Source of the DNA: a virus
DNA length: 62,247 nucleotides
Strand: one strand, 5' to 3'
Virus record (IMG/VR): IMGVR_UViG_3300036832_000189
Span: 1 to 62,247 of that record
Below the pieces are notes generated by a model. It was not told the DNA's origin. It saw only the letters and a program-made list of their open reading frames with translations, and did no database searches. Made by a program: the position numbers and the translations under genes. Positions 1 through 62,247 of the stretch are shown here, in pieces. Each line of letters starts with the position of its first letter. Position 1 is the first letter of the stretch.

Positions 1-213
1 GCTCGGTACCAACTACCAACTACAGCTACAACCTGGATAGTGCAGGATGGGTGTCTACTGGGTTTGCAAAGACGGCTTCTCCGGGGACACTCGCGCCTGG
101 TCTACACACGATGGAAGTGGAGGCCATCGACAGTGTAACCGGCACATCGGATGAAGCGCAGTATGCGTGGATGGTGTCCGGGGTTGGGCCTTCAAGTCCC
201 GCCATTGTAAGTG
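1..213 (+). repeat. Terminal direct repeat, left copy (matches 62035-62247)
   Basis: Bases 1-213 match the last 213 bases of the window except at 110, 125, 134, 137, 146, 149, 152 and 155. All eight differences are at third codon positions of the tail gene and are synonymous. The first 109 and last 58 bases are identical. The simplest reading is a circular or circularly permuted genome of about 62,034 bp; a true internal gene duplication is the alternative. Confidence 0.9.
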
Positions 214-2042
214 TGAAAGACACCTTCGGCAATAACATTGCCGAAGGAGGGTCTACGTTTGACACCAACTTGATTGTGAACTTCACTACAGACCCAGGGA
301 CGACGGTTAGAGCGATTGTCGATTCGCATATTGACCAGCCTATCACATCACCCTATTCAATTTCGGGGCTCAGTACAGCACCACACTTGCTGCAGCTGAT
401 TGCCATTGACGTCAATGGAATAGCATCGCCGGCTACGGAGTTCTCATGGACTGTGGCTGCGTCTCCTACTGGGCCTGGTAGTGGTACGTACTCAAGGCAG
501 ATTGTGCTGCCAAATGGAGTTGCAGGGAGTGACGTGCTTGAGACGATTTACGTGCGGGCTACCGACCTGCAGAATCCCCCGCAGACAACGGTTCAGGTGC
601 GGAACATAGTGCTTCACCTACCATTGAGCGGTGGAAACCCACCCTCTGTGGGGATCACATATCCTGATGATGGAAGCACACTGTATGCGCTGGACACAAC
701 TACCATCGTAGATGTGGTTCCAGATCCCACAGGGTCAATAGTGAGTGTCGTTCTAACCTCAGACACAGGGACAACTGTGGACATCACAGCCAATGTTTCT
801 GGGCCTGTGGGGGGTGTCTACACATACACCGGCGACATTGACGTGCTGCAGGATGACGCGACAGGGATTGCATGCACAGTCACGGACAGCAACGGGAACG
901 TGGGCAGCGATAGTGTCACTGTGAACGAGACTTCTGTGCAGCCACCGCTTGAGACTGCGGTGTCACCACTGCCGATGACGTTCTTAGCAGCAATTGCTGA
1001 GTACAAGATCGTCCACTATGACTACAACGGCAATGCTGTTGGTCAGATCAAGGGAAACGAACTCGGTGTGAGCATGATACTGGACGACATTCCATCTGCT
1101 ACATACAGCATCTCACTGGAATCGCAGATGTCCAAGAAGGCGTACTGTGACCCAGATAGACACGATTGGAAACTGTTCCGCAACAACAAGCTGATTACTG
1201 GTGGATACATTGCCTCTGCAGAAGTGAATACAGACAATCGTGTACTGGCAGTGACAGCTCAGGGCTACCTTGGATACCTGGCGAAACGGGTCATGCCGTT
1301 CGACCCGTCCGGGAACCTGACTGCACAGTACAAGGTCTACAACAACGTGGATTTGTTCGAGGCGGTGCGTCGCATTCTGGACTACGTGGTTGGTACGTCC
1401 AACAGCATTCCTCTCACGTTTAGTCCAGGGAACAGTGGCGTGGTAGATACATACAATTTCGACCCGTCAAACCGAGATGATATGCTGACGATCCTGCAGA
1501 ACCTGGCACAGAGTCATCCAGGATTCGACTATGAAATCGACGGCAACTGCACGCTGCATATGTATGCTCCACAAAAGGGTGTACAGAGTCAGTTGACATT
1601 GGGACTACACACGAACGTCGTCAGCGTGGACTTGACGAACATCGGGATACGTGGGAATAGAGTTCTAAGCTCTGGAGCAGGCACCGGCAACAGCACAGCA
1701 ATCAGGTTCAAGGAGGATGTGACAAGTCAGAACGCCGGCCGGATTGTTGATGACGTGATGGATTTCGGTACGGTAGCTAGTTTGACGCAGTTGAACAGTC
1801 TCGCCAATGCAGAGCTGGCGCTAGCGATCCAGCCACAACTCAGCTTCACAATCACCGGCAAGCCAGACCTCGGAGAGAACTGGTGGGAGCTCGCAGGCGT
1901 GGGCGATTGGATTTACGTTGACGTCGATTTGGAGTATGAGGTCGTTCAGGACTGGTACCGCTGTACTCAGATCGACATGGCACAGACAGCTCAGGGTGAT
2001 GAGTTGTTCACGTATACCTTTGCTCCGAATGTGGTTGGGTGA
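1..2042 (+). CDS. Giant tail protein, C-terminal part (Ig/FN3-like repeats then gp37-like tail hub domain)
   Basis: This is the 3' part of the gene that begins at 58143 and crosses the window join. The frame enters at base 3 and ends at TGA 2040-2042; joined, the protein would be about 1977 residues. The first ~300 residues here are Thr/Ser/Gly-rich beta-sandwich repeats (LAPGLHTMEVEAID, APHLLQLIAIDVNG). From about base 970 the composition changes to a compact domain (YKIVHYDYNGNAVGQIKGN, then WKLFRNNKLITGGYI) that resembles the siphovirus ReqiPepy6 gp37-like tail protein, a baseplate hub component. Finding this domain at the C-terminus of a giant fusion is unusual. The small gene at 2046 follows 3 nt after the stop. 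Confidence 0.8.
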   Translation, partial: SVPTTNYSYNLDSAGWVSTGFAKTASPGTLAPGLHTMEVEAIDSVTGTSDEAQYAWMVSGVGPSSPAIVSVKDTFGNNIAEGGSTFDTNLIVNFTTDPGTTVRAIVDSHIDQPITSPYSISGLSTAPHLLQLIAIDVNGIASPATEFSWTVAASPTGPGSGTYSRQIVLPNGVAGSDVLETIYVRATDLQNPPQTTVQVRNIVLHLPLSGGNPPSVGITYPDDGSTLYALDTTTIVDVVPDPTGSIVSVVLTSDTGTTVDITANVSGPVGGVYTYTGDIDVLQDDATGIACTVTDSNGNVGSDSVTVNETSVQPPLETAVSPLPMTFLAAIAEYKIVHYDYNGNAVGQIKGNELGVSMILDDIPSATYSISLESQMSKKAYCDPDRHDWKLFRNNKLITGGYIASAEVNTDNRVLAVTAQGYLGYLAKRVMPFDPSGNLTAQYKVYNNVDLFEAVRRILDYVVGTSNSIPLTFSPGNSGVVDTYNFDPSNRDDMLTILQNLAQSHPGFDYEIDGNCTLHMYAPQKGVQSQLTLGLHTNVVSVDLTNIGIRGNRVLSSGAGTGNSTAIRFKEDVTSQNAGRIVDDVMDFGTVASLTQLNSLANAELALAIQPQLSFTITGKPDLGENWWELAGVGDWIYVDVDLEYEVVQDWYRCTQIDMAQTAQGDELFTYTFAPNVVG
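804..814 (+). repeat. Dispersed 11-base motif CCTGTGGGGGG
   Basis: One of seven exact copies in the window (804, 8662, 21458, 34264 and 59997 forward; 24387 and 56754 reverse). Here it is read as Pro-Val-Gly-Gly inside the giant tail gene. Confidence 0.6.
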
Positions 2043-2476: not shown

Positions 2477-2570
2477 GCTCGCGCATTTAGCGTGGGAGTT
2501 TTACTCGGCATTCACGGCTGCATTTGTGCCCGTATGGGCCATCATCAAGAGAAAGGGCCAAGATGAGTGA
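2469..2570 (+). CDS. 33-residue membrane miniprotein in lysis cassette
   Basis: ATG 2469 opens a 33-codon frame ending at TGA 2568-2570. It overlaps the upstream stop by 8 nt and the endolysin ATG (2563) by 8 nt, so it exactly bridges its neighbours. The sequence has one hydrophobic, aromatic segment (EFYSAFTAAFVPVWAII) with a basic tail (KRKGQDE). This layout suggests a translationally coupled accessory lysis protein; function is inferred only from position and topology. Confidence 0.55.
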   Translation: MTRLAHLAWEFYSAFTAAFVPVWAIIKRKGQDE

Positions 2571-3426
2571 GGAAGATCCACCTGTATCGGACGAGCCTGT
2601 ACCGGGTGATGTACCAGTAACACCGGATGAGGAGAATGAACGATTAGCTGTAAGCGAGGCAAGAACCCACTTGCCTGGTACGAGAACACTCGACCTCACA
2701 ACACCGATGATGCATGGCGCGGACGTGTTCGAGTGCCAATATCTCCTGAATACCAACAGGTTCAAGCAGAACTACAGGCCGGGTGAGCGTGACGGTGTGT
2801 TCGGGCCAGAGACAGCCGGTGCGTGTCGGCGGGCCAAGTATTGGATGGGCTATCCGATGGGGCATATGACTCCACAGTTCGGCAAGCAACTTCGGAGTTA
2901 TCTGATCCCTTCGGATCACAAGCTCGCTCGTCGTTTGCCTGCAGATTACAGAGTCAGGCGTTCCAATAGAATGCGGCGATACACGTCGAGCTGGCGAGAC
3001 AAGGTCGTAGACTATGCAATCTCACAAGAGGGCTACAAGGAGTGGGGCTACGACCACACCAAGTACAACATCTGGTACTATGGGTTTGACAATCCGGCTC
3101 CGTGGTGTCTGATCTTCGTGAGCTACTGCATCTCCAACTACGGTGGCCGGCACTTCCACCAAGCCTATGTGCCTGCGCTTGTGGACTTGGCTAAAGGCGG
3201 ACAATTGGGCTACCACATCGTAACCTACGGCGAAGCTATACGTGGAGACATCGTCTGTTACGATTGGGATCACAACGGTACCGCTGACCATGCAGAATTC
3301 CTGGCTAAGAAGGAGAATAGCTCAACATTCAACGGTGTGGGAGGCAACACAGGCGCCAACTCCAACGAGGTAGCCTCAAGCACGAGATACTTGAGTGAAG
3401 TACAACACTTCGTCCGAGTGCCATAG
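2563..3426 (+). CDS. Endolysin: peptidoglycan-binding-like N-terminus and CHAP-type catalytic domain
   Basis: This 287-residue protein probably cleaves host peptidoglycan at lysis. ATG 2563 is chosen because AGAAAGGG lies just upstream and it overlaps the miniprotein stop; a TTG at 2524 would add 13 residues. Residues 1-30 are acidic and Pro-rich. Residues ~50-98 resemble a peptidoglycan-binding repeat (YRPGERDGVFGPETAGACRR). Residues ~145-285 look like a CHAP amidase/endopeptidase, with candidate catalytic Cys182 (APWCLIFVSYC), His243 (TADHAEF) and a later Asn (GGNTGANSNE). There is no signal peptide, so export would rely on the holin. A holin gene follows 12 nt downstream. Confidence 0.85.
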   Translation: MSEEDPPVSDEPVPGDVPVTPDEENERLAVSEARTHLPGTRTLDLTTPMMHGADVFECQYLLNTNRFKQNYRPGERDGVFGPETAGACRRAKYWMGYPMGHMTPQFGKQLRSYLIPSDHKLARRLPADYRVRRSNRMRRYTSSWRDKVVDYAISQEGYKEWGYDHTKYNIWYYGFDNPAPWCLIFVSYCISNYGGRHFHQAYVPALVDLAKGGQLGYHIVTYGEAIRGDIVCYDWDHNGTADHAEFLAKKENSSTFNGVGGNTGANSNEVASSTRYLSEVQHFVRVP

Positions 3427-47583: not shown

Positions 47584-50500
47584 ATGCCTAGCGCACGAGA
47601 GCTGTTCATCATCGTACGCGCGAATGACGAGGCCAGCCGTCAGCTCCGGCAGGTCGGCAGTAACTTGCGTTTCCTGTCGAAAGAGACAGACTTCGCGGCC
47701 GCACGCACTCGACAATTCGCAGCACAGCAGCAGTTCTCCGCTCGTCAACTGGCATTGCAAGCACGCCAGGCTAACCTGAACCGACAGCTTTTTGAACACG
47801 TCAACGAGGCAGGGCAGAAGGTACCTGCCCTTCTTGACGTGCAGACGGGCCTCGCCCAACAGAAACTGGATCGTCTAGGGAAGGCACGTATCCTCGCAGA
47901 GCAGAGGTACACGTCCTTTGTGCAGCGCCGTGGTGAGATGGAACAGGCGGTGTATGCGGCCTCGGCGAAAGCACAAGAGGAACAGCTTGCTCAGTTCAAG
48001 AAATCAGAAGAATACATGGCAGCGGCACCAGGCTCTCGTGGTGGCCTGGTTGCTGGGGCTAAGGGACGTCTTGCACAACAGGCTGCATTGTTTGAGGGTA
48101 GAGCTCTGCAGAAGATCGCCCAGGACGAAACACGGCTACAATTGGCGTCGGAGAGAGCTGGTGAAGCCTTTATCCAGCAAGGCATTGCATCGGAGAAGCT
48201 AGCTCTATCGGTAGATGCTGCCAAGGCTTCCTTGAGCCAAACGACATCACAAATGAGACAGAACTCCATTGCTGCAGAAGAAAATGCAGCAGTGCTGAGA
48301 AAGCTGCGCCAGCAGGAACTCATGGTGTTGCCGAACAAGTTGGCGGGTGCGGGACGAGCTGCATCATTCCTTGGTCAGAACCTCCAGTTTGCTGGTGGTA
48401 TTGGTCTTGCAGGACTAGGCTTCGCTGCTAACTCGGCGGCTGCTCTGCAGACTAGCACACAGCTTGCAGCTACGCAGGCTGGTTCATCCTTGGCGACAAT
48501 TGAGAAAAAGGGTAACCAGGCGTTTGATGCCATCATCAAGCAGATGCAGCGGTTCCCGGCGACTTCTCAGGAGATGAGCCAGTCGCTGTATGACATCTTC
48601 TCTGGCACGAACGTGCAGGGTATCGCCAAAGGCACGGCCCTGCTCGCACTGTTCAACAAAGCTGCCGTTGGTGGCCAGGCATCACTGAACACGGTCACGC
48701 AGGCAGGACTGACAGTGATGAACGCCTACGGGCTCAAGGTCAGTCAGATGCCGAAGATTATGAACCAGATGTTCTCGGCTGTGCGTTTCGGACGTACCAA
48801 CATGGAGGACTTCGGAAATTCACTGAATCAGTTGGTGCCTGCATTTGAGTCTGCAAACCAGTCCACAATGGTCATGTTCGGCTCACTGGCGTTCCTAACG
48901 AGACGTATGCCATCTGTCCGTATGGCTGCAACTTCGCTTGCACGGGCGACGGAGGTTCTCGGCAACGCAGCATTTGTCAAGGGTATGCACCAAGCTGGCG
49001 TGGAGATAACCAACGCTCATCATGCGCTGTTGCCGCTGCCAGAGGTCATCGGACGCATCTTGCAGAAGTTCCCACAGCTTGGCAGGGATGCCAACATCCA
49101 GAACTTCATCAAGACTATCAGTGGTATGAGTGGCACTATCCAGGCCCGCCGTGCGTTGACGTTCCTGTTCCGGGACTTTGGAGCCTACCAGAAGATGTTG
49201 CACCAGGTTTCTGGAGACACGAACGAGTTTGGTCGCTCATTCTCGGCAATGACCAAGACACAGGGCAACCAGTGGAAAGTGTTCATCAACAGCATGAAGG
49301 CTCTGTGGCTGGAGCTGGGTAAAGCTGCGATTCCAACACTGGTCGGCATGAGCAAGCCTATAGTTGCTATAACACACCAGCTCGAGAACATGAGTCCTCA
49401 AACTAAAAGCATGATTGGTCAATGGGCGGCCTTGTCGGCTGCAGGCTTGCTTCTAATGGGTACGTTTAGCCGCATTGTCGGTATCATTTTGAGCTTTAGT
49501 AGCACTATGATGATTCTCAACCAGCGGTTGGCAATCTCAGCATCAATAGGACGGTTGGTTACGTTTCTAAGAATGGCACAAGTAGCCTTTGTGTCTGCTG
49601 GTGGTGGGGCTGCTGGACTTAGAGCAGGGTTGGCGACGTTAGCAACTACGATTGGGCCTGGATCGCTTCTTCTAGTTGGACTTGCAGCCGTAGGTGCTGC
49701 TGTATACATTCTGAGCACGGAATCTGACGACGTGCAGAAACACCTTGAGGCGCTGGGTAACACGATGAAGAGAATCAACCAGCTACCTCCACTAAGGGCT
49801 GGCCCTGCAGTTGATAGAGGACTCATCCAGGCTGGTGCGAACGCACAGTATTTCCATGAACAGCTCGGACAAGTCCATGAGCAAATGCAGAACTTCCAGC
49901 CCGCGGTCGGTGGTCGTCTAGGTGCCACACAAGCACAGTTGGCGACTGTTAGCATGGTTGGGAGAGCGAAAGAACTCGACCAGGCCATCAAGTTGACGTG
50001 GAAACAGCAGGAAGAACTCAACAAGAAGGTCATCCAGGGTGCGAGTGCCTACAACAGGTTGCATGATGCCGCTAAGAAGGCATTGGAGCCCCAACGAAGT
50101 CAGTTGCAGACGAATGTGCTCAACATGTTCAAGATTTCGGATCAGGGTGTAAGATCCACTGTACAATCGCTGTCTCAGATGACTGACACGGTACTCGGCG
50201 CAAAGGTGATCGCGCGAGTTCAAGAGTTAGGCTCAAAGGGTAGGATCACGCTCCAGCAGATAGCATTCGCTACACACCAGCTAGCTTCACGAGATTACCT
50301 GGCTCATTTCCTACGTCTGGATCCGAAGCAGGCTCTAAAGGCAATGGCAGAGATTCAGGCCAAAGGCCGGATGATAAAGTTGCCCCCGGTCAAGGTTCAT
50401 GCCGATACAAGAACTGCCAACAAGAATTTAGACGCTCTCAAGCAACAATACACACGGAATGCTGGCATAATGAGTAAGCCTATTGGTATCCATGTGTACC

Positions 50501-51498
50501 TGGACACGGCCACACTTGCCGGAGACTTCGCCACGATGGAGTCTGATGCCGCTGCAGCAGCAGGGATAGCTGCTGCAAATATGAAGACCGTGTTCAACGA
50601 ACGATTCAAGCGAGGGTCACCATCCAAGTGGATGATTCGGCTCGGCCAAGATTTGATGACTGGGCTTGTACAGGGTATTGCAAGCAAGAAGGCGGACTTC
50701 AAGTCTCAGGTGCAATCCGTGGCACAGGCTATCTCTACAGCATTTGACGATGTCAAAAGCACGGCTGTAAGTGCTATGGGTACGCTATTTAGTGGTCCGC
50801 TGTTCGGGCCAGGAGCGGGGACACCTAGCTTCCAAACCAAAATGGACTTCGGTGCGAAGCTCTCATTTGGGGATGTAAGTGGCGACTTGAGAACACAAGT
50901 CTCTCAGTTCCGCTCTTGGCGGCTTGCACTGCAGCGGTTAGCTGCGGACGGGTTCCCACCAGGACTCATTCAACAGCTCATGGCACTTGGTCCTGCAGCA
51001 ATGCCAGAGGTTCTTGCACTCGTCCACGCCACACGGGGACAGCGGAAGTCGTTCGTCAGGCTGTACAGACAGCAACAGGGAGAAATCAACAGCATGACTC
51101 GCTTCGGTATGTCGGAGCAGATGAAAGTGTGGAAGCAGATGGGCAAGAGCGTAGCTTTCGGCTTCTTGGCTGGGCTTAGGAGTGAGTCACCAGCTATTGT
51201 GCGCTACCTGCGGAAGCTGATGCAGGAGTTGTTCCACACGGTGCAGCATCACAACAAGTCACATTCGCCTTCCAGGCTGTACTTCCAGGAGGGCGTGAAC
51301 ATGATGACTGGCCTGCAGATGGGTATGGATAGCGTCGGCGTCGTTGTCCCCGGTGTGGGGTTTGGATCACGGGGGGCCGGGGGCGTCCAGTACCATTACC
51401 ATCAACACCTCCAGAGGTCACCAGATACATCTGAGCGTGCGTTCCTGCGTATGGCTCGCTGGGATTATGAGCGGCATATTCCAAGGCGGCGTGGGTGA
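47584..51498 (+). CDS. Tape measure protein
   Basis: At 1304 residues this is the longest single tail gene outside the fibre region. Residues ~15-250 are coiled coil (AARTRQFAAQQQFSARQLAL; GKARILAEQRYTSFVQRRGE). Hydrophobic segments occur near 270-290, 615-645 and 690-710 (WAALSAAGLLLMGTFSRIVG; GPGSLLLVGLAAVGAAVYIL), as usual for tape measures. At ~0.15 nm per residue, a tail near 195 nm would be expected. The C-terminal half is more helical and ends basic (ERHIPRRRG). Confidence 0.9.
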   Translation: MPSARELFIIVRANDEASRQLRQVGSNLRFLSKETDFAAARTRQFAAQQQFSARQLALQARQANLNRQLFEHVNEAGQKVPALLDVQTGLAQQKLDRLGKARILAEQRYTSFVQRRGEMEQAVYAASAKAQEEQLAQFKKSEEYMAAAPGSRGGLVAGAKGRLAQQAALFEGRALQKIAQDETRLQLASERAGEAFIQQGIASEKLALSVDAAKASLSQTTSQMRQNSIAAEENAAVLRKLRQQELMVLPNKLAGAGRAASFLGQNLQFAGGIGLAGLGFAANSAAALQTSTQLAATQAGSSLATIEKKGNQAFDAIIKQMQRFPATSQEMSQSLYDIFSGTNVQGIAKGTALLALFNKAAVGGQASLNTVTQAGLTVMNAYGLKVSQMPKIMNQMFSAVRFGRTNMEDFGNSLNQLVPAFESANQSTMVMFGSLAFLTRRMPSVRMAATSLARATEVLGNAAFVKGMHQAGVEITNAHHALLPLPEVIGRILQKFPQLGRDANIQNFIKTISGMSGTIQARRALTFLFRDFGAYQKMLHQVSGDTNEFGRSFSAMTKTQGNQWKVFINSMKALWLELGKAAIPTLVGMSKPIVAITHQLENMSPQTKSMIGQWAALSAAGLLLMGTFSRIVGIILSFSSTMMILNQRLAISASIGRLVTFLRMAQVAFVSAGGGAAGLRAGLATLATTIGPGSLLLVGLAAVGAAVYILSTESDDVQKHLEALGNTMKRINQLPPLRAGPAVDRGLIQAGANAQYFHEQLGQVHEQMQNFQPAVGGRLGATQAQLATVSMVGRAKELDQAIKLTWKQQEELNKKVIQGASAYNRLHDAAKKALEPQRSQLQTNVLNMFKISDQGVRSTVQSLSQMTDTVLGAKVIARVQELGSKGRITLQQIAFATHQLASRDYLAHFLRLDPKQALKAMAEIQAKGRMIKLPPVKVHADTRTANKNLDALKQQYTRNAGIMSKPIGIHVYLDTATLAGDFATMESDAAAAAGIAAANMKTVFNERFKRGSPSKWMIRLGQDLMTGLVQGIASKKADFKSQVQSVAQAISTAFDDVKSTAVSAMGTLFSGPLFGPGAGTPSFQTKMDFGAKLSFGDVSGDLRTQVSQFRSWRLALQRLAADGFPPGLIQQLMALGPAAMPEVLALVHATRGQRKSFVRLYRQQQGEINSMTRFGMSEQMKVWKQMGKSVAFGFLAGLRSESPAIVRYLRKLMQELFHTVQHHNKSHSPSRLYFQEGVNMMTGLQMGMDSVGVVVPGVGFGSRGAGGVQYHYHQHLQRSPDTSERAFLRMARWDYERHIPRRRG

Positions 51499-52382
51499 TC
51501 GAGTCCATCACAGTGTTGGGCACGAACGGCTCCCAGGTGCAATTGAATCTAGCGGATAATGTTTACACGATCGAGACCTTCGACGTGACGTACGACGCAC
51601 GAAGTGACGACACCGACAGAGTACAGGAGCATGGTACGTGGCCGGCCTTCGATTATATCGAGACAATGCATGTGAGCATCGAGGGCAAGATCAATGCGAA
51701 CAACGCTGGTGACTATTGGGCTAAGCGGCGCACGTTCTTGGCTCCATTTACGCCTGTGCCTGAGAAGGGTATTCGGACTACGTGTAGGCTGTTGGCAGCG
51801 TTCACGGATTTCCCAGAGGTTGTCCAGTTGGACTGCAACCTCGATGGCAGCCGCCCGGCTGTGCCGATGACTGTAGATATCCCTGCAGTTACACAGTATC
51901 AGATCAACTTGAAGGCTCGTGACCCTCGGTGGCTTGGAGAGCTGGTACAAACTCTGAGTCTTGGGATACCTGCTAGCGGTGCTCCTGGGTTCACTGTTCC
52001 ATTTACACTGCCGATCACACTTACGGGTGGCAACAGCCCTGTGAACTCTGTGATGAATGCTGGTGACGTGGTCACGTACCCAGATATCATCATTCCAGGG
52101 CCGTGTTCAGACCCATCACTAACTGTGTTTCGGCCTGATGGCAGCAGTGAACAGTGGGCTCTGCAGAACATCTTCATCCCACAGGGGCAGGTTATTGAGG
52201 CAGATTTCCAGGCTACAACTGTCATTTTGAACGGGCAGTTCAATCTGTACTCGAAGCTGGCACCATCATCCGTGTGGTGGCGTTTAGATCCTGGTATCAA
52301 CCAGGTTGAGTACAACGCCGTGAACACGACCACGGACACTCCGCCAGCGCAGATCAACTGGCAAAATGCGTACATGCTTTAG
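51495..52382 (+). CDS. Distal tail (Dit-like) protein
   Basis: GTG 51495 overlaps the tape measure stop by 4 nt. The 295-residue protein begins IESITVLGTNGSQVQLN, then MHVSIEGKINANNAGDYWAK, which is the Dit pattern of a belt domain followed by KRRTFLAPF. The C-terminal half is a beta galectin-like part (YPDIIIPGPCSDPSLTVFRP). It joins the tube to the hub and fibres. Confidence 0.8.
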   Translation: MIESITVLGTNGSQVQLNLADNVYTIETFDVTYDARSDDTDRVQEHGTWPAFDYIETMHVSIEGKINANNAGDYWAKRRTFLAPFTPVPEKGIRTTCRLLAAFTDFPEVVQLDCNLDGSRPAVPMTVDIPAVTQYQINLKARDPRWLGELVQTLSLGIPASGAPGFTVPFTLPITLTGGNSPVNSVMNAGDVVTYPDIIIPGPCSDPSLTVFRPDGSSEQWALQNIFIPQGQVIEADFQATTVILNGQFNLYSKLAPSSVWWRLDPGINQVEYNAVNTTTDTPPAQINWQNAYML

Positions 52383-52395
52383 CTAAGGAGACTTC

Positions 52396-53541
52396 ATGGC
52401 CTCACCAGCAACGGTGAACGGAGACATCAACTTCCTTGGGTCGGGAACGTATACCGGCGAGGACTTGCGCTCCGTTCTATCGGACAACGTGGCGATTGGA
52501 GCTGTTGATCGGGGTAGCTTCAAGGTTCTATCCTCTGCAGGACTGACCCTTACTATCAGCCCTGGCACTGCATATGTGCGCCAGCCTGGAGATGGCACAG
52601 CATATGTGGTTTCGCAGTTCAACACGCCTCTCCAGATCACGTTAGATACTCCTGCGCCCTCGGGCAACCCAAGAGTGGACTCGTTGTACTTGCAGATAGC
52701 CGATGGCTCTGCCTCTGGAGACACGAGCAACCAGTTCACAGGACAGGTAATCCCGCTCACGGGAGCTCAGGCAGCTTCGGCTACGTTGGACAACAGGAAC
52801 GGTGCGCTAGACCCACGTACTAACCTCGCAGCATCACCGGCGTACATTCCGTTGGCGGATATCATCGTGAATGCAGGCGCAACGTCTGTGTCGAATGCGA
52901 ACATCCGTGATCGCCGGCCAGTTTCACTTGGTGTGCCGACGCCTACGACTGACGTAGACCAAGCAAATATGGCATTCTCTCCAGCAATCCCCTTCGGGCG
53001 GCACACGATTGTAGGGGCGGACTACGCGCAGAACCAGGTAGCTGTGTTGACGACGTTGAACCGTAGGATTCCGGCTACCAAGCTCCGATGGTGCTATTGG
53101 GAAGATCCAACAACGCCTATCTCGAGCGGTGTAGGCTGGCGGTTCGTTATCTGTGGGGGTGATGGCTACAAGATCGCAGACACTGGAATTGTGCTTTTCA
53201 CTGGCACGGCTGGTACCGCCCCACACATTGTCCAGAACCTGACGCTTCCATATGCAGGCTACGTGTTTGAACCTGGTCAGTATTACACGTGGTTTGGACT
53301 CGGCGGAGCTACATCGGGCATGACTGCCTATTGGGTCGGTACGTCTCTCGGCTTCACTGGTGGCTCCAACGACCAGACTGTAAGAGGCTCGACAGTTCCT
53401 GCGACGAATCACGCCTTCGCAGCAAATACGGGTGGAACTGCATTCCCGACATCTGGCAACATCCTGGGTATGGCGGATCTGGCTGTGTCGGGGATTTCCA
53501 ATCCTGTGCTGCCTTGCCCGGTGTATACACTCAGCACATAG
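52396..53541 (+). CDS. Minor tail/baseplate protein (fibre adaptor-like)
   Basis: The 381-residue protein opens with ATVNGDINFLGSGTYTGEDL and TLTISPGTAYVRQPGDGTAY, then GNPRVDSLYLQIADGSASGD and YIPLADIIVNAGATSVSNAN. This order is common in baseplate or fibre-adaptor proteins of actinophages. The C-terminal half is beta-rich (GWRFVICGGDGYKIADTGIV). AAGGAG precedes ATG 52396. Confidence 0.7.
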   Translation: MASPATVNGDINFLGSGTYTGEDLRSVLSDNVAIGAVDRGSFKVLSSAGLTLTISPGTAYVRQPGDGTAYVVSQFNTPLQITLDTPAPSGNPRVDSLYLQIADGSASGDTSNQFTGQVIPLTGAQAASATLDNRNGALDPRTNLAASPAYIPLADIIVNAGATSVSNANIRDRRPVSLGVPTPTTDVDQANMAFSPAIPFGRHTIVGADYAQNQVAVLTTLNRRIPATKLRWCYWEDPTTPISSGVGWRFVICGGDGYKIADTGIVLFTGTAGTAPHIVQNLTLPYAGYVFEPGQYYTWFGLGGATSGMTAYWVGTSLGFTGGSNDQTVRGSTVPATNHAFAANTGGTAFPTSGNILGMADLAVSGISNPVLPCPVYTLST

Positions 53542-53542
53542 T

Positions 53543-54022
53543 GTGGCAATTACAATCACCATCACGAACCCGGTACCGAATGAGTCTGTACAACAGGCTA
53601 CAATTCCGGTTCTTTGTACGATCACAACTGATGCCCCTGGCGCAACGATCACGGCATCGACGGTATCCACCAATGGTGGTACCCCGCTCGGGCTCATCTA
53701 CAACGCGAGCTCAGGATTGTACTCGAAAACTGTTGCAATTCCTAATGGTGCAGTTACGTGCGTCGTCAGGGCAACAGATAGTACGAGTGCAACTCAGTCG
53801 GCAACAGTACGCTTCACGAATGGTGGAGGCGCTGCGTTACAGCCCCCACCGCTGGTCAACATAACCAGCCCTGGTGAGGGCGATGTATTTGGACAGGCAC
53901 AGCTCACAGCATCAGCAGACGTAGGGAGTCCCGTTGGTGTGGACAGCAGTAAGGTAGAAATCTCGGTAGATGGCATCAGTTGGGTGTCGATGGCTCTACC
54001 GCCACCGGGAGGTAGCGGATAG
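53543..54022 (+). CDS. Ig-like tail protein
   Basis: GTG 53543 lies directly after the previous stop and gives 159 residues, with two Ig-type domains (ITNPVPNESVQQATIPVLCT; NITSPGEGDVFGQAQLTASA). It overlaps the next GTG by one base. A surface-adhesion role is typical for this fold; no specific ligand is inferred. Confidence 0.7.
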   Translation: MAITITITNPVPNESVQQATIPVLCTITTDAPGATITASTVSTNGGTPLGLIYNASSGLYSKTVAIPNGAVTCVVRATDSTSATQSATVRFTNGGGAALQPPPLVNITSPGEGDVFGQAQLTASADVGSPVGVDSSKVEISVDGISWVSMALPPPGGSG

Positions 54023-57000
54023 TGGCAACACGCGCGGCGAACTTGGTAGGTAATCTCAGAGGCTTGACGATCCCGGCATCTGGCGTCTACGCGGGTGCAG
54101 AAGATGCAGATGCAAACAGAAACTTCACGGGCACGCTGGGTATCGAGACACAGACCGGACGACGTATGGCGATCCGACGACACCACTACTCATGGCTCAC
54201 AGTAGCTCCTGGTGGAACAGAGAATGCAGTTGCTACGCTAAGGAACCCACGCGTTCTTAGCATGGTAGGGTACAGTGGTGCTGGGAGTTTCCCAATCAAG
54301 CAGACCAATGACGGGCATGGCAGCACGCATAGTGGAGATACAGCTACGGTTGCAGGACACCAGGGCATGGATAGGATCACCGCTGGTGAGTTCGACACAA
54401 AGTATTTCATTCCATGCGCCAAGGCAGTAGCAGCTATTGGTGACCCGGTACTGGTAAACCTGTGGTATGAGTCCAACGGCTCACACAATCCGTATTGGCC
54501 TGGCTTCCAGGGGACAATAGGAACTGTACTTGGCACTAGAGGAACTGGCGAGACGACCTATGTGAATGCTTGGCGGCACGTCGTAAGTGTGTTCAGAGCA
54601 CAGGGTGCCAGCAACGCAATCTTTGTGTTTGCACAGCAGACAGTACAGAACTACGGATTCTATCAGAACTTGTGGCCTGGAGATGATGTTGTTGACGTGA
54701 TGATGGTGGATCTGTACCGCAACACGTTCAGGTCTAGGTGTCTCAACCCTGGTACCACCGGCGGTGGTGTCAACTCCCAGGATTACTACCTGTTCTCGCA
54801 GGGAACAGCTCTAACTACTGGACAAGCCACGTCGCTCAACAGGGCGCACAACGTCGCAATCTGCTTCGGCATCGCAGAGGCAGGACTGCGTGACGGTCAG
54901 GGCTACCAGGATGTAGCTGCTGCTGGCGGCGATGGTCAAACATACTACAAGAACGCAGACAACGGGAACGATGGCGTCGCCAAGCTGCAGCAGGACATGA
55001 AGGACTTCCCGAACACGTGTTTTTATATCCACTGGAACGAGCTGGGGTCACCGGCGCTGTCTGGTACGGGTAACTACATCGACAAGCCTGCCGGTGCGTT
55101 GCCACGGTACAAGGCGCTGTATAACGACTCGTACTATGGACTGTTCTACGGCGGTACGGCTGTAAATCAGCCTCCGACGTTGGTGACGGCCCCCGTGACA
55201 GACAAAAACCCCACAGTGGGGACGGCCACGACAACAACTCCGGGCACGTGGAATGGGTCGCCAGTCCCCACCGAGACATACCAGTGGCAGTCCTCGGCGA
55301 CACAGAACGGTACGTACGCGAACATCTCAGGGGCTACGTCGCAGAGCTACACGCCGGTTACAGGAGATGTGAGTAAATTCCTGAGATGCCAGGTGACTGC
55401 AGCAAACGGGGTGAGTCCGAACGGGGTGGCTGTAACAGACCCTACCAATGCCGTCGTCGCCGCAGGCACTAGCGGGGCGTTACAAACAGCGCCGACGGCT
55501 AACGTCCCCGACTACAGCAGCACCGCATGGACACCAAACAACAATCTAGCCGGTCGTGTGCATGGCATTGTTGAGCTCAATAACGTCGTCTACGTGAGTG
55601 GCGACTATGACACGGTGACAGATCCAAATGGCACGGTGCATAGCAACATGCCATATTTGTCGGCGTATAGGATGGATACGGGCGCTGCGATTGCAACGTG
55701 GCGTCCGAATCCATCCGCAACGTGTTTCAAGCTGGCATTGTCGGCTGATGGAACTAAGCTGTATGTCGGCTATGCAGGAACCACAGTGGCAGGCGTGACA
55801 CGTCATTACGTGTTTGCTGTGAACACGCTCTCTGGGCCTACAGATGCCACGGCAGCTACAGCGCAGAGCATCCTGCCAGACCTGAGCACGTTGGACGGCA
55901 CGGTCAGAAAGGTGCTGTTGGATGAGGCTAACAGCCGCGCCTGGATTTTCGGTTCCTTTACGGGCTTCGTGAAGCGACTGACACTGTCAGGAACATGGAG
56001 CATTTCCAGCGGGTTCAATCCACCTGTATTCAGCCAGGGATCTGGGTCTGCACCACCACGGTTGCATGCGGCCTTGCTAACCCACGACGGATCGAAAATC
56101 GTCATGGGCGGGGCGAACATCTCACCCACAGGGATTGCTCTCGACCCGAATACAGGACTTACTGCGAGCTGGTCATACTCACCTAGCAATACGGTACCAG
56201 GGATTTTCGACATTCAGACAACTGGTACTGTGGTCTACGTTGCCGGCGGCGATCAGAGTGGAGATATGCTGTTCTGCTGCAACGAGTCGGGTGGTGGGCC
56301 GAATGCGCTGACATTCCCGAACGGCAATACACACCAAGGCAACTGGTACCATGTGTGCGATGGCAACGTCCAGGTGATTGCACCGGACAACGCACACTCG
56401 AGGATCTACTACGGCCACCTCGGAGATAATGCGGCCACGCATATCAACAGTGGGACACTGGATCAAGTGCGGCATGGGCTCGTGACTATGCCAAGTGGAC
56501 TCACTGGTGGAGATATGTTGCCGTTTGGGCATCCACCAGATTTCACCAACCCCACTGTGGGGGGTCAAGCAACGGGGTCGCCGCAGAAGCTGTTCGCCAT
56601 GCATATTGGGCCTTCTGGTGCATTGCACGTCGGTGGAGACTTCACGGGTGTAAATGGGAGCGCCGGCAATGCGTTCCAACGATATGCACGATTTGATCCT
56701 GTAACTTCCGGCGTGCCAACAAACACGACGATTCCGACCGTAACCGCGAACAACCCCCCACAGGTGGGGGACGTTGTTACTGGGAACGATGGTACATGGG
56801 GCGGTACGCCTACAAGTTACACGAGGCAGTGGTATCGCAAGGATGCGGTTGGCAACGTTGCTAGGATCACGGGAGCTACAAGCACGACGTACACTGTGGT
56901 GACCGGGGACGTAGGCTTCCAGTTGATTTACGGTGTGAAAGCTGTCAACGGCACTGGCTCGAGTGTTGAGGCTAGAAGCAACCCAACAGCAATAGTGCCA

Positions 57001-57654
57001 TCACCGCCGACAGGAGCGCCTGCAACGCCGGTGCTTGATCCTGGGAACCTACCGGCCAACCCCACACAGGTCACAACGTTCCAGTTCACGTGGACAGACC
57101 CCGATGTGCCTGACCACTGGCGGTACAGGCTACTCACGGATGGTACGCCGGGTGCATGGACGATCACGAATTCGCAGCTCGCAAATGTGAACACGCCGGG
57201 AGGGCATACCTACCAGTTCGAGGTACAAGCTGGGAGTGCTGGAAATCAGTACAGCGCGAGCGCAACATTCCCGTGGGTGGTACAAACGCCTTTGGTAGCT
57301 GCGCCGGTGCTGACGTTCAAGCCTCTGGCGAATACCTCAGCGAAGAGCGTAGCATTCGCATGGACAGTCGCCGGTGCGGATTCTGGCTACCGATACAAGT
57401 ACGCATTCGACACGCCAGCAGGAGTAGGAACGTGGTCGTCTGTGCAGAGAGAGCCGTGTGCTGACTTCGTGGGGCCACTTGTACCAGGAGCATACAGCTT
57501 CCATGTTCAGGCCATCGACGGGACAGGGATGCCGAGTATCGTGACTGACTGGCCGTTTGTGGTTGTATTGCCTGCGGGGACAATCGCACCGGCACTTGTT
57601 CAGTATCCACCGATCCAGGATTCTGATACAACACCAACCTTCGGATGGGCATAA
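54022..57654 (+). CDS. Multidomain tail protein: GH26-like barrel, Ig repeats and beta-propeller
   Basis: GTG 54022 gives 1210 residues. Residues ~15-370 resemble a GH26-like barrel: NLWYESNG (acid/base candidate Glu150), DVMMVDLYR (Asp230, Tyr232) and FGIAEAG (nucleophile candidate Glu286). Then an Ig-like module (PTVGTATTTTPGTWNGSPVP, YTPVTGDVSKFLRCQVTAAN), a propeller-like repeat region (IVELNNVVYVSGDYDTVTD; CFKLALSADGTKLYVGYAG), a second Ig module and two FN3-like domains follow. It is probably a receptor-binding protein that degrades a surface glycan. Another Ig module of the same type occurs in the next giant gene. Confidence 0.75.
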   Translation: MATRAANLVGNLRGLTIPASGVYAGAEDADANRNFTGTLGIETQTGRRMAIRRHHYSWLTVAPGGTENAVATLRNPRVLSMVGYSGAGSFPIKQTNDGHGSTHSGDTATVAGHQGMDRITAGEFDTKYFIPCAKAVAAIGDPVLVNLWYESNGSHNPYWPGFQGTIGTVLGTRGTGETTYVNAWRHVVSVFRAQGASNAIFVFAQQTVQNYGFYQNLWPGDDVVDVMMVDLYRNTFRSRCLNPGTTGGGVNSQDYYLFSQGTALTTGQATSLNRAHNVAICFGIAEAGLRDGQGYQDVAAAGGDGQTYYKNADNGNDGVAKLQQDMKDFPNTCFYIHWNELGSPALSGTGNYIDKPAGALPRYKALYNDSYYGLFYGGTAVNQPPTLVTAPVTDKNPTVGTATTTTPGTWNGSPVPTETYQWQSSATQNGTYANISGATSQSYTPVTGDVSKFLRCQVTAANGVSPNGVAVTDPTNAVVAAGTSGALQTAPTANVPDYSSTAWTPNNNLAGRVHGIVELNNVVYVSGDYDTVTDPNGTVHSNMPYLSAYRMDTGAAIATWRPNPSATCFKLALSADGTKLYVGYAGTTVAGVTRHYVFAVNTLSGPTDATAATAQSILPDLSTLDGTVRKVLLDEANSRAWIFGSFTGFVKRLTLSGTWSISSGFNPPVFSQGSGSAPPRLHAALLTHDGSKIVMGGANISPTGIALDPNTGLTASWSYSPSNTVPGIFDIQTTGTVVYVAGGDQSGDMLFCCNESGGGPNALTFPNGNTHQGNWYHVCDGNVQVIAPDNAHSRIYYGHLGDNAATHINSGTLDQVRHGLVTMPSGLTGGDMLPFGHPPDFTNPTVGGQATGSPQKLFAMHIGPSGALHVGGDFTGVNGSAGNAFQRYARFDPVTSGVPTNTTIPTVTANNPPQVGDVVTGNDGTWGGTPTSYTRQWYRKDAVGNVARITGATSTTYTVVTGDVGFQLIYGVKAVNGTGSSVEARSNPTAIVPSPPTGAPATPVLDPGNLPANPTQVTTFQFTWTDPDVPDHWRYRLLTDGTPGAWTITNSQLANVNTPGGHTYQFEVQAGSAGNQYSASATFPWVVQTPLVAAPVLTFKPLANTSAKSVAFAWTVAGADSGYRYKYAFDTPAGVGTWSSVQREPCADFVGPLVPGAYSFHVQAIDGTGMPSIVTDWPFVVVLPAGTIAPALVQYPPIQDSDTTPTFGWA
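56754..56764 (-). repeat. Dispersed 11-base motif (reverse orientation)
   Basis: Exact minus-strand copy of CCTGTGGGGGG inside an Ig module, with bases forming CCCCAC-AG-GTGGGG, so it can also fold on itself. Confidence 0.55.
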
Positions 57655-57835: not shown

Positions 57836-58143
57836 TGGACGCACACACTGAGCGGTTATATACACTGCTAGAACACCAGAGTAACTGGTCTGAGGTTCGA
57901 GCTGCGCTGTATGAGGTCGTGAATGACCCGGACTTCCATGATGCCGAAATGTACAAGCGCGTGGCAGACGTTATCGACCGTCAGGTAGCAAAAGCCGAGG
58001 TCGGTGAGCTACAGACGATGAACGACATCTATCCTGCGATGGTGCAGGTGTTGCACGCCTTGGTGTCCATGAAGGCATACGCCGACAGGAAGGACTACCA
58101 GGTAAACGTCAACTTCCTCAAGGCACTACTGGGGTCGGTGTAA
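57832..58143 (+). CDS. Helical protein, unknown
   Basis: ATG 57832 gives 103 residues, helical throughout (TERLYTLLEHQSNWSEVRAA; QTMNDIYPAMVQVLHALVSM). It shares one base with the giant tail gene start (TAATG). Function unknown; coupling suggests a tail assembly or lysis partner. Confidence 0.65.
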   Translation: MMDAHTERLYTLLEHQSNWSEVRAALYEVVNDPDFHDAEMYKRVADVIDRQVAKAEVGELQTMNDIYPAMVQVLHALVSMKAYADRKDYQVNVNFLKALLGSV

Positions 58144-61100
58144 TGGCTGTAACAACAATCGCACGAATCGCAATGGTTGGCGACGCTGGTGGAGCGTCGG
58201 CGGCCAACAAGGCAGTCGCTCAGGCAATAAGTGCATCGTTTTCAAGGTTCGTGAACGCTGGTGGTAACCTCACGAATACGTGGCTGTTTGGCAACGGAGA
58301 CATGATCTATCCGCAGTCGCAGACCACCAATGAGGCACACGTCAACGCCACGTGGTATTACAGCGGCTCACTGATTTCTCGGGCACGCACGGTAGCTACA
58401 CCAGGGAACCACGACAACGGCACGGGGAGTGGGAGCACTCCAAATATCCAGTCTTGGATCAACCAGTTCATTACGAATGCGACTGCGTCCAGGATGAACG
58501 GGTGGATCACACAGGCTGAGGGCATTCCGAACACAGATCAGTTCGTAGACATCTCTGGGGTGAGGTTCCACTTCCTGAACTCCGGTGCTGTGGAGTCTGG
58601 AAATGCAACACCGGGTTGGCCTGTACCACACACGGGTGGCTCGGTTTCGGGGAACGCCAGGGTGGCACGGCTGCGCGGAGCATGGGCACCTGGACTGACG
58701 AATGTGGTAGTCACACACCACGGCAGGTATTCGTATTACGGGAACCACCACGACAATCCCACGATGCAGAACCTCGTGAACGAGTTCATGGGGGTGAACG
58801 ACAGCTCTGGGCCTCATGGCGTATTGTGGCTATCCTGCCATGACCACAACATGCAGCTCTTCCAGCCACAAGGAGCTGCAGGGACGTTCCCTGGGGTAAC
58901 GTACCTTGTCGGTGGCGAGTGTGGCAGCGGTAACTACACACCAGCAGGGCCTGCGAGCCAAACGTCACAGAAGAGCTGGCTGCAGTTCGCCAACATCAAC
59001 TTGGCGGGCGGATTCACACAGATTGACATTCAGTCTGACGGTACGATGTTGGTGCAGTTTATAGACGGCACCAACAACAACGGCAACCTGATGACAAACA
59101 CCTCGAGCACGGGTGTAACTGGGGCAGCCAAGACAACAGTACGGTTCGCATCTACGGTGAATGCTGCGCCAACACACGGCACGCCTGTTTTGACGGATAC
59201 GACTCCCACAGTGGGCTCAACCACGACAGCAGACCCACAGCCGTCAACGTGGGATGGAACACCCGCGCCGGCGTTCGCCTACCAATGGCAAATTGCCACC
59301 GCAAGTACAGGCCCGTGGAGCAACATCAGCGGAGCTACAGGAGCTTCATATACACCTGTAAGTGGAGATAGCACCAAGTTCCTACAGTGTGTTGTCACAG
59401 GGAGCAACGCTTCTGGCTCGCTGCCCGTAGCCACCGGCGCTAGCTCTGCCGTAGCGGCCACAGCATCCGTTCCTACGGCCTCGACGCCCCGACCGAGCAT
59501 CACGGCAGGGGTGCCCGCGACGGTCGGTGTGGCGCTGGTTTGCGATCACGGCACATGGAATCCCAACGGCACCATCGACGCCTACCACTATGCGTGGGTG
59601 AGAAAATCAGCATCAGGAACGACGAATGCTATAGGTACTGATTCGACAACGTACACGCCTGTACCAGCGGATGTTGGTTTCACGATCACATGCAATGTGA
59701 CAGCTCACAATGCAAGCGGGATGTCTGCTGCCGTGAGTACAGGCTACACCGGCGCGGTGCTTTCGGCCGGCGGGAACAACGTGCAGGACAGCTTCAACCG
59801 CACGGTGGCGAATGGCCTTGGAACTGCGGACTCCGGGCATGTCTACAATATTCTGCAGGGGAATGCGAACCAGTTCAGCGTCAACGGATCAGCGATGGTG
59901 ATGGCGGCGGTAGCGGGGAATTCACCACTTGTGGACATCGCTGGCTACGATACCGCCGACGGCTTTGCCATGATGAAATTCCGGCTGATGACTGCCCCTG
60001 TGGGGGGTTTGCAGAGCACGGGGCTCGATCTACGCGTGACAGATCAGCTTACATATATGCGGTGTGTGATTGAGTACCTTCCTGGCGGCACCAACACGCT
60101 GCGGGTTGACCGGCAGAACAACAACGTCAACTTCGCTATTGGGAACAAGACGGCACTGAGTGTGTTGACCATAGGTTCATGGTACTGGTGTCGGATGGAA
60201 GTCCAGGGACAGACATACAAGGTATGGGTTTGGCCTGACGGCACCGCACAGCCTGGTACACCTACCATGACTGCCGTTGATAACGGGCAGGGAGGGCCAT
60301 CGAGCTCGTACACCTCCGTCAAGCGCGGTGTGGACGGTGGTGGATTCTGTAACGCGATGGCTGCAGATCCACTTGTGCAGGGCAGGTACCTGTTCCACGG
60401 TGATGTGTACGGCTCACACGTTTCAGACAACGGCTGTAATTCATGTTACCCGGCCATGCGTAACTCGACCTACAGGTCAAGCAACCCGTATGGACGTGCA
60501 TGTATGGGTTCCAAGAACCCACACACGCCAGGACGTGCAATCTTTGGCTCGGGTGGGTTGAAGACCAGCGACGCTAGCGGTGAGCTAGCTTATGTTGACC
60601 CGGTCAACCCATTCGACTACATCACGGCAGATACTGCGCATGGACTCGGAACAGGATTAGCCTCGGGCACGAGTCCAGCGGGTAGATCACCACGGCCTGT
60701 GGGCAGGCTGATAGATTCGATCTATGATTCAGCGAGTGGGATCGAATACATCTTCTGGCTCTCGGGCGGGAACTTGTGTCGTACAAAGAACTCAGCCACG
60801 GAGACTCCGGGCACCACAGTGGATGTGATTCCACTGGGAACCACACAGTGTTGGAGCTCACTGTGTATTCTTGATGTGTCTACGATCGTGTTCACCAGCT
60901 GGAACTACGACCTGCCGAACATGAACGCGCAGAACTCGTACATTGGCAGGGTAACAGCAGCGAACATCAAGACCGGAGCTGTAGGTACATTCACAGCGAC
61001 GCACCTGACCTCGAGTGTGCCTAACAAGTGCTACGACATCAGGACTGGTAAGGACGGACACACCTATGCGGCCTGTGACACGCAGGGTGTGTATGAGGTC

Positions 61101-62247
61101 ACGTTTGTCAGCGGTACAAGTGTTACGTTCACGCCGATCAACAGCGCGTTCTTCGACGCAAAGGTTGTATCTGTAGACGCAGCCTCGGATCGCACGCTGT
61201 GGGTAGGCCAAGCGAATGACTCTGCTGGGCCTGGTAGTGGTGACATGGGTAGTTCTATCCACGTAATTGCCAAGGGTCACTGGACAGGTTCAGTATGGAC
61301 GTGGACGTGGGCGACAACGACTGCTACTACCGACGGCACCAAGACCTACCAGGACGGCGATGGTACAACTCCCACAGGGCCAAGATGGTGGCTGTGGGGT
61401 GCATTCCCGGACATCCAGTCTGCGGGTATGGATGTGTCGGTCATCTGTGTAGATCCGTTTGATGACAACACCATCACGCTCTGTGGACGTGGTGGCGCTT
61501 GGCAGACACGCGATGCTGGCGCACATTTCTATCCGTCGATGAAGGGCTTGGGTGGCGGCGAGGCTCATAACATCAAGATCACTGGCGGCGGGCACATCGC
61601 AGCAACAGACCAGGACTACACCGGGTCTATCACGACTGACCACTACTTGACAGCCGCCAAGGGGCCAGCCCCCACAGGGGGGCATGTAGCGACTGCAGGT
61701 ATCACCTTCACGGGGCTTGACGGAGCGACCTACAAGTGGACGCCGTCCTCAACCTCCCTGGCTAACTGTACGCTGCAGCGGAACGGCGTCAACATCCACG
61801 ATAACTACATGCAGAGCGCAGCGAGGCATCCTGAGTTCATCGACGCTGACCAGGATGGATACGTGTATATTAGCCTGTTCGGTGGAGGTATTTTGACAGT
61901 CGTGCCACCCGGCTCGAGTACCTCCACCGGGCAACAGCTCACACATGGTAGTGTGGGGATCAGGTCACAAACGTTAGCTGGTAATACATCCTTGGGTGCG
62001 TTCCAGATAGATGCATTCTCGGCGGGGCCTATCGGCTCGGTACCAACTACCAACTACAGCTACAACCTGGATAGTGCAGGATGGGTGTCTACTGGGTTTG
62101 CAAAGACGGCTTCTCCGGGGACACTCGCGCCTGGTCTACACACAATGGAAGTGGAGGCTATCGACAGCGTTACCGGCACGTCTGACGAGGCGCAGTATGC
62201 GTGGATGGTGTCCGGGGTTGGGCCTTCAAGTCCCGCCATTGTAAGTG
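58143..62247 (+). CDS. Giant tail protein, N-terminal part (metallophosphoesterase, Ig, jelly-roll and propeller domains)
   Basis: ATG 58143 overlaps the previous stop by one base. The frame is open to the window end and continues at base 3 of the window. Residues ~5-265 form a calcineurin-like, purple-acid-phosphatase-like metallophosphoesterase: VGDAGG (13-16), GNGDMIY (50-56), PGNHDN (87-92), VTHHG (190-194) and SCHDHN (231-236). Two Ig-like modules (~310-460), a jelly-roll (QDSFNRTVANGLGTADSGH), and propeller-type repeats with an Asp-box-like GAWQTRDAG follow. A phosphatase domain on a phage tail tip is unusual; its substrate could be a phosphorylated wall polymer such as teichoic acid, as inference. 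Confidence 0.8.
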   Translation, partial: MAVTTIARIAMVGDAGGASAANKAVAQAISASFSRFVNAGGNLTNTWLFGNGDMIYPQSQTTNEAHVNATWYYSGSLISRARTVATPGNHDNGTGSGSTPNIQSWINQFITNATASRMNGWITQAEGIPNTDQFVDISGVRFHFLNSGAVESGNATPGWPVPHTGGSVSGNARVARLRGAWAPGLTNVVVTHHGRYSYYGNHHDNPTMQNLVNEFMGVNDSSGPHGVLWLSCHDHNMQLFQPQGAAGTFPGVTYLVGGECGSGNYTPAGPASQTSQKSWLQFANINLAGGFTQIDIQSDGTMLVQFIDGTNNNGNLMTNTSSTGVTGAAKTTVRFASTVNAAPTHGTPVLTDTTPTVGSTTTADPQPSTWDGTPAPAFAYQWQIATASTGPWSNISGATGASYTPVSGDSTKFLQCVVTGSNASGSLPVATGASSAVAATASVPTASTPRPSITAGVPATVGVALVCDHGTWNPNGTIDAYHYAWVRKSASGTTNAIGTDSTTYTPVPADVGFTITCNVTAHNASGMSAAVSTGYTGAVLSAGGNNVQDSFNRTVANGLGTADSGHVYNILQGNANQFSVNGSAMVMAAVAGNSPLVDIAGYDTADGFAMMKFRLMTAPVGGLQSTGLDLRVTDQLTYMRCVIEYLPGGTNTLRVDRQNNNVNFAIGNKTALSVLTIGSWYWCRMEVQGQTYKVWVWPDGTAQPGTPTMTAVDNGQGGPSSSYTSVKRGVDGGGFCNAMAADPLVQGRYLFHGDVYGSHVSDNGCNSCYPAMRNSTYRSSNPYGRACMGSKNPHTPGRAIFGSGGLKTSDASGELAYVDPVNPFDYITADTAHGLGTGLASGTSPAGRSPRPVGRLIDSIYDSASGIEYIFWLSGGNLCRTKNSATETPGTTVDVIPLGTTQCWSSLCILDVSTIVFTSWNYDLPNMNAQNSYIGRVTAANIKTGAVGTFTATHLTSSVPNKCYDIRTGKDGHTYAACDTQGVYEVTFVSGTSVTFTPINSAFFDAKVVSVDAASDRTLWVGQANDSAGPGSGDMGSSIHVIAKGHWTGSVWTWTWATTTATTDGTKTYQDGDGTTPTGPRWWLWGAFPDIQSAGMDVSVICVDPFDDNTITLCGRGGAWQTRDAGAHFYPSMKGLGGGEAHNIKITGGGHIAATDQDYTGSITTDHYLTAAKGPAPTGGHVATAGITFTGLDGATYKWTPSSTSLANCTLQRNGVNIHDNYMQSAARHPEFIDADQDGYVYISLFGGGILTVVPPGSSTSTGQQLTHGSVGIRSQTLAGNTSLGAFQIDAFSAGPIGSVPTTNYSYNLDSAGWVSTGFAKTASPGTLAPGLHTMEVEAIDSVTGTSDEAQYAWMVSGVGPSSPAIVS
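59997..60007 (+). repeat. Dispersed 11-base motif CCTGTGGGGGG
   Basis: Exact copy inside the giant tail gene, read as Pro-Val-Gly-Gly in a jelly-roll region with no obvious link to the other Pro-Val-Gly-Gly sites. Confidence 0.6.
62035..62247 (+). repeat. Terminal direct repeat, right copy (matches 1-213)
   Basis: See the left copy at 1-213. This copy encodes exactly the same 70 residues despite eight base differences. Confidence 0.9.

Follow-up and report, generated by a model that had tools for sequence, protein, structure and literature searches.

The window, a stretch of 62,247 nucleotides that makes up IMG/VR record IMGVR_UViG_3300036832_000189, encodes a giant tail protein that begins with a predicted purple acid phosphatase (PAP) domain of the TRAP/ACP5 type and, when the two contig ends are joined, continues in frame to a tail-hub-like domain. 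We favor, at a probability of about 0.6, the reading that this is a tail-tip hub protein whose catalytic N-terminal PAP would cut phosphate esters of an envelope polymer during adsorption or penetration. Glycosidases, peptidases and GDPD phosphodiesterases make up most of the known tail enzymes, and the window PAP would add a di-metal phosphatase to this repertoire. The positions of all features are given in Table 1.

Table 1. Features of the giant tail protein and its surroundings, in positions of the window (residue numbers refer to the joined protein)
Feature	Positions	Strand	Evidence or remark
ORF of giant tail protein	58143 to right end of window	+	ATG start, 1368 aa without stop
PAP domain, residues 1-334	58143..59145	+	leave-one-out profile, AF2 model, structural match
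Motif I GDAG, residues 13-16, ligand D14	58179..58190	+	invariant in 15 PAPs
Motif II GDMIY, residues 52-56, ligands D53 and Y56	58296..58310	+	invariant in 15 PAPs
Motif III GNHD, residues 88-91, ligand N89, active-site H90	58404..58415	+	all 15 PAPs have N89 and H90
Motif IV THH, residues 191-193, ligand H192	58713..58721	+	invariant in 15 PAPs
Motif V CHDH, residues 232-235, ligands H233 and H235	58836..58847	+	the two His are the same in all 15 PAPs
Ig-like repeats, about residues 340-545	59160..59777	+	common to the neighboring 1210-aa protein
Middle, about residues 545-1290, jelly-roll-like then beta-propeller-like	59775..62012	+	sequence inference only
Right copy of 213-bp terminal overlap	62035..62247	+	8 differences from window 1-213
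Left copy of 213-bp terminal overlap	1..213	+
Continuation, residues 1299-1631, Ig-like repeats	3..1001	+	joined frame
Tail-hub domain, residues 1632-1977	1002..2042	+	phrog_1885, Shaeky hub, hhalign
Endolysin, shortly downstream of hub	2524..3426	+	phrog_21357, E 3.5e-14
Tape measure protein	47584..51498	+	phrog_1533, E 1e-22
Distal tail protein (Dit)	51495..52382	+	PF22768 SPP1_Dit, E 2.5e-7; phrog_33
1210-aa tail-module protein, GH26-like N-terminal domain, same Ig repeats	54022..57654	+

The N-terminal domain is a predicted TRAP-type purple acid phosphatase

To characterize the N-terminal domain, we aligned it with PAP-like proteins from viral contigs, which were gathered by a pattern scan; most matches to its pattern, GD..Y/GNHD, were discarded as chance frames or short ApaH-like phosphoesterases. 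An earlier note on this DNA had described five metal-binding motifs in the order GDAG, GDMIY, GNHD, THH and CHDH, and all five were located in that order. The seven metal ligands (D14, D53, Y56, N89, H192, H233, and H235) were invariant in the 15-sequence PAP alignment, as were H90 and H202. PAPs are characterized by the motifs DxG / GDxxY / GNH(D/E) / xxxH / GHxH together with seven metal ligands. The window domain has all of these, except that in motif V a Cys stands before the first His where Gly is usual. In motif IV, the His of GHYP in rat PAP lined up with the first of the two HH positions. The Tyr of motif II marks true PAPs and gives the Fe(III)-Tyr color, and the window domain has this ligand as Y56. 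By alignment, the metal-ligand set looks complete and the domain would be a putative di-metal phosphatase.

Single sequences were poor queries: neither phmmer against the PDB, nor tblastn against phages and plasmids, nor the first scans of viral contigs gave a useful match. Pfam Metallophos (PF00149) scored 19.7 bits (E 0.0013) on the window domain, just under its cut-off of 21.5 bits, so a search with this single library would miss the PAP; the relatives L009, L145, L123, and L180 passed the same cut-off. The PhoD-like Pfam profile PF09423 did not match the window domain. A profile of five PAPs, the window domain included, found rat, human and pig PAP in the PDB with E values from 9e-23 to 8e-20. 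In the leave-one-out search, a profile built from the 14 other PAPs scored the window domain at 98.6 bits (E 1.8e-27), compared with 8.7 bits for the best of 500 shuffled controls. The profile search that had been proposed as a check gave a strong match with the PAP profile, while Pfam Metallophos alone stayed below its cut-off.

The AlphaFold (AF2) model of the domain, computed from the 15-sequence alignment with the other PAPs in the input and without templates, reached a pTM of 0.80, with low confidence at the C-terminal edge (312-334) and in the loops 121-128 and 154-168. The best VIA structural matches were the type 5 PAPs of human and pig, with Z 26.9 and 2.6 A over 262 residues. By family, the Z scores were 26-27 for TRAPs, 24.1 for GAP50, 23 for plant PAPs, 21 for GpdQ, 19-20 for SMPDL3A/B, and 18 for PhoD, with Rv0805 also below human and pig PAP. 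The modeled fold was nearer to PAPs than to other metallophosphoesterases. Since the type 5 PAPs top this ranking, we read the domain as a PAP that is, in its modeled fold, nearest to the TRAP/ACP5 type. The claim of a PAP-like metallophosphoesterase at the N-terminus was confirmed by profile and by model; of the structure prediction that was proposed with it, the model supplied the fold, and the completeness of the metal ligands comes from the alignment. The window PAP shares with TRAP/ACP5 (1UTE, 1WAR, 2BQ8, and 1QHW) the fold, the five motifs, the seven ligands and the HDHN[LM]Q signature, but it has only about 20% identity with them, carries no signal peptide and is part of a phage tail protein.

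The giant protein probably runs across the contig ends into a hub-like domain

The ATG of the giant protein shares one base with the stop of the upstream gene (TAATG, 58141..58145, + strand). At the right end of the window, 213 bp recur at the left end. The 8 differences between the two copies all fall in third codon positions and both translations are identical. Joining the two ends produced a single continuous frame of 1977 aa. IMG/VR treats a record in which no end repeat was detected as linear, so we infer the join, although strongly, as one 1977-aa polypeptide. This agrees with the giant protein of about 1977 residues that the earlier note had joined across the window ends. Differences of this kind (8 in 213 bp, all third-position) look as if two strains meet at an assembly break; the end overlap could also be seen as a duplicated Ig-like unit.

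The Ig-like repeats that follow the PAP domain showed 45% identity over 96 aa (E 5e-15, BLASTP) to the 1210-aa neighbor, and the same region (340-545) gave weak SCAB-Ig and IG_AIR9 matches. The beta-rich middle (about 545-1290) matched no family at the cut-off. Residues 1299-1631 share a stretch with the ORF at 53432-54022 (E 0.002).

The last 346 residues matched the minor tail proteins of phrog_1885 with E 1e-16 over 291 residues and the hub gp15 of Streptomyces phage Shaeky with E 2e-4 (tblastn), and a profile of hub relatives aligned to the domain with a probability of 96.7 over 314 columns (hhalign). According to the record of Shaeky gp15, HHpred matched it to gp58, the distal tail protein of 80alpha. 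The Pfam profile Sipho_Gp37 (PF14594, ReqiPepy6 Gp37) did not match the window hub at E<=5, while it did match the Krampus hub. The sequence comparisons support a hub-like C-terminus, as had been claimed, but not its likeness to ReqiPepy6 Gp37. A model of the hub domain from its single sequence had a pLDDT of 38, and no solved structure was matched by the hub profile. The homology to phrog_1885 hubs such as Shaeky gp15 is full-length. However, the hub of the related phages is a separate protein (about 370 aa in the Shaeky type) encoded immediately 3' of Dit, and the N-terminal extension of 1600 residues in the window protein is therefore unusual.

Neighboring genes and host

The gene of the giant protein lies after those of the tape measure protein and Dit and before the endolysin. 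The isolated N-terminal domain of the 1210-aa neighbor scored 20.1 bits against PF02156 (cut-off 20.2), and candidate catalytic Glu residues were seen in WYESNG (148-153) and FGIAEAG (282-288). The same protein also has a propeller-like part, and no relative of it was found among annotated phages. The terminase has its relatives in Arthrobacter and Microbacterium phages and the hub in Streptomyces phages, so the host is likely an actinobacterium. Elsewhere, at 6220-8649 on the minus strand, the window encodes a family-A DNA polymerase whose N-terminus carries a uracil-DNA glycosylase domain of family 4 (TIGR00758, E 2.8e-15).

Proposed role and its alternatives

In the role that we favor, the hub domain would anchor the giant protein in the virion, and the Ig, jelly-roll-like and propeller-like parts may act as spacer and sugar-binding modules. 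The PAP would hydrolyze phosphate esters of an envelope polymer at the cell surface, timed with adsorption and penetration of the phage. Our guess for the substrate is a phosphorylated envelope polymer, either teichoic-acid-like or a phosphorylated glycan. The putative GH26-like glycosidase next door would probably work jointly with the PAP; its PF02156 score close to the cut-off and its plausible catalytic Glu suggest a joint attack on a phosphorylated glycan. The catalytic domain and the hub domain lie in one frame in the joined sequence. Judging from the genes, the PAP would be located in the virion and would be catalytic. Tail phosphodiesterases of the GDPD type are an accepted tool, which we counted in favor of a tail phosphatase, as we did the repeated occurrence of PAPs next to virion genes (see below).

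The PAP domain could instead be a binding module that keeps its metal site and recognizes a phosphate-bearing surface polymer, which we consider unlikely. Conserved metal ligands are possible in a domain that only binds, GAP50 is a PAP fold that serves as an anchor, and tail proteins often turn enzyme folds to binding, which speaks for such a module. The structural match to GAP50 and the missing canonical Gly in motif V point the same way. However, all seven ligands as well as H90 and H202 are kept although the window PAP is the most divergent sequence of the PAP tree (end branch 2.76), and ligands conserved despite such extreme divergence argue for selection on chemistry.

It is more doubtful still that the phosphatase acts after or outside adsorption, in phosphate scavenging, nucleotide dephosphorylation or a surface change against superinfection. 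Secretion and superinfection control were proposed by the authors for ORF22 of Thermobifida phage P1312, a 1096-aa "phosphodiesterase" (PMC4569894), and the PhoD-type phosphatase genes of some phages are located away from the tail operon, as in Jay2Jay, whose gene is in a tRNA-rich region. In contrast, the window protein begins directly with the PAP domain, without a signal peptide, and the PAP is joined to the hub domain in one frame. The joined protein could also be an artefact, with contig ends from different genes or strains that have an Ig-like domain in common, so that the PAP would sit on a tail protein other than the hub. The imperfect overlap and the linear treatment of such records fit an artefact, but the silent differences, the identical translation and the continuous frame do not, and a complete complement of phage modules is present in the remainder of the window. 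We regard an artefact as very improbable, and the PAP would even without the join share its protein with 1034 residues of Ig and beta-rich sequence of the tail type.

Recurrence of PAPs in viral contigs

The earlier note had proposed a search for other phages with the same domain order. Scans for PAPs found six other viral contigs with a PAP without signal peptide in or beside virion genes. In three of them (L145, L167, and L170) the PAP lies directly behind a tail-fibre-type gene and its start overlaps the stop of that gene, and in L009 and L179 it is syntenic, flanked in both by one and the same pair of structural-cluster genes. The sixth, L180 (5191-6783), is a fusion within a structural gene cluster, with the PAP behind a 260-aa N-terminal part that belongs to no known PHROG. 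An N-terminal hydrophobic, signal-peptide-like segment, which the window protein lacks, is present in most of the other PAPs from viral contigs. Those with a signal peptide (L122, L171-L176, L178, and others) were classed as secreted, bacterial-type PAPs and left out of the virion set. L035, L093, and L095, also without a hydrophobic segment, were left out of the count for their ambiguous context.

A single origin of the virion-linked PAPs was not supported, as the tree needs at least two changes; the window PAP sits on a long branch without a settled position. Two PAPs in viral contigs were fused to glycoside hydrolases, GH114 in L142 (886-2607) and GH99 in L182 (4864-6717). In the viral library, a fold search picked out metallophosphatase folds in phage proteins that are 554-1417 aa long. 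Among 50,697 annotated phage records, tblastn found no tail protein with a TRAP-type PAP, a search that distant relatives may escape. When the annotated collection was searched with a composed consensus PAP, the only matches were gp352 of Bacillus phage G and a single record of a faecal phage.

Phosphatases of cultured phages

Phosphatases have been annotated in several published phages. Microbacterium phage Rowlf encodes gp26, a 684-aa "purple acid phosphatase" whose function was unknown to its authors (PMC12352085), and a variable slot in the EK1 phages of Microbacterium contains either a PAP or a phosphoesterase, or is empty (PMC13014141). We checked whether Rowlf or P1312 already carries a PAP of the window type, and this was ruled out: Rowlf gp26 and P1312 ORF22 both matched the PhoD-type profile PF09423 and failed the PAP profile. 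They resemble the window PAP in belonging to the metallophosphatase superfamily and in having their gene within the virion structural region, and ORF22, directly 3' of a tail gene, also carries a carbohydrate-binding-like domain. A search with Rowlf gp26 returned 63 phage records, labeled PAP, hydrolase, phosphoesterase or alkaline phosphatase D, and in Rowlf, Tandem, and ArMaWen the gene is among structural genes. Metallophosphatases in tail or head modules are already annotated in cultured actinophages, and the claim of novelty is weaker than first thought. The earlier note knew of no fused tail phosphatase; this has to be narrowed in view of the structural-module genes annotated in P1312, Rowlf, and the EK1 phages, although the two that we tested are PhoD-type and are not known to be joined to a hub.

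The structural region of many cultured actinophages holds phosphatase genes, and the in-frame fusion to a hub points to the virion tip. A complete-looking PAP borne by a hub suggests a role on the host cell surface in infection for phosphatases of several phages that have so far lacked an explanation. Tentatively, and at less than even odds, TRAP-type PAPs may be a class of virion enzymes that has escaped notice, borne on the hub as a fusion or encoded separately behind tail fibres, and the orphan "PAP" and "phosphoesterase" genes of actinophages might by analogy act on phosphorylated surface polymers in entry and influence host range. Such a role can now be tested in laboratory phages, since some EK1 phages have the gene and others lack it and Microbacterium foliorum can serve as their host.

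Phosphoesterases of another kind also occur on tail proteins. GDPD domains are found in tail modules of enterococcal phages, where an attack on teichoic acid was proposed (PMC10194240). Those of enterococcal phage 9183 and of Streptomyces phage Yara gp27 resemble the window protein in placing a phosphoesterase on a tail protein, with teichoic acid as the proposed target (PMC10194240), but they belong to an unrelated enzyme family with another metal site. Yara gp27 (L127, 15472-19350), a hypothetical protein of 1293 aa, combines a GDPD domain (E 6e-23) with a baseplate domain, BppL_N. In P1312 (L184, 6389-11649), ORF21 and the rear half of ORF22 both fall under phrog_5313, which looks like a single tail protein interrupted by insertion of the phosphatase domain.
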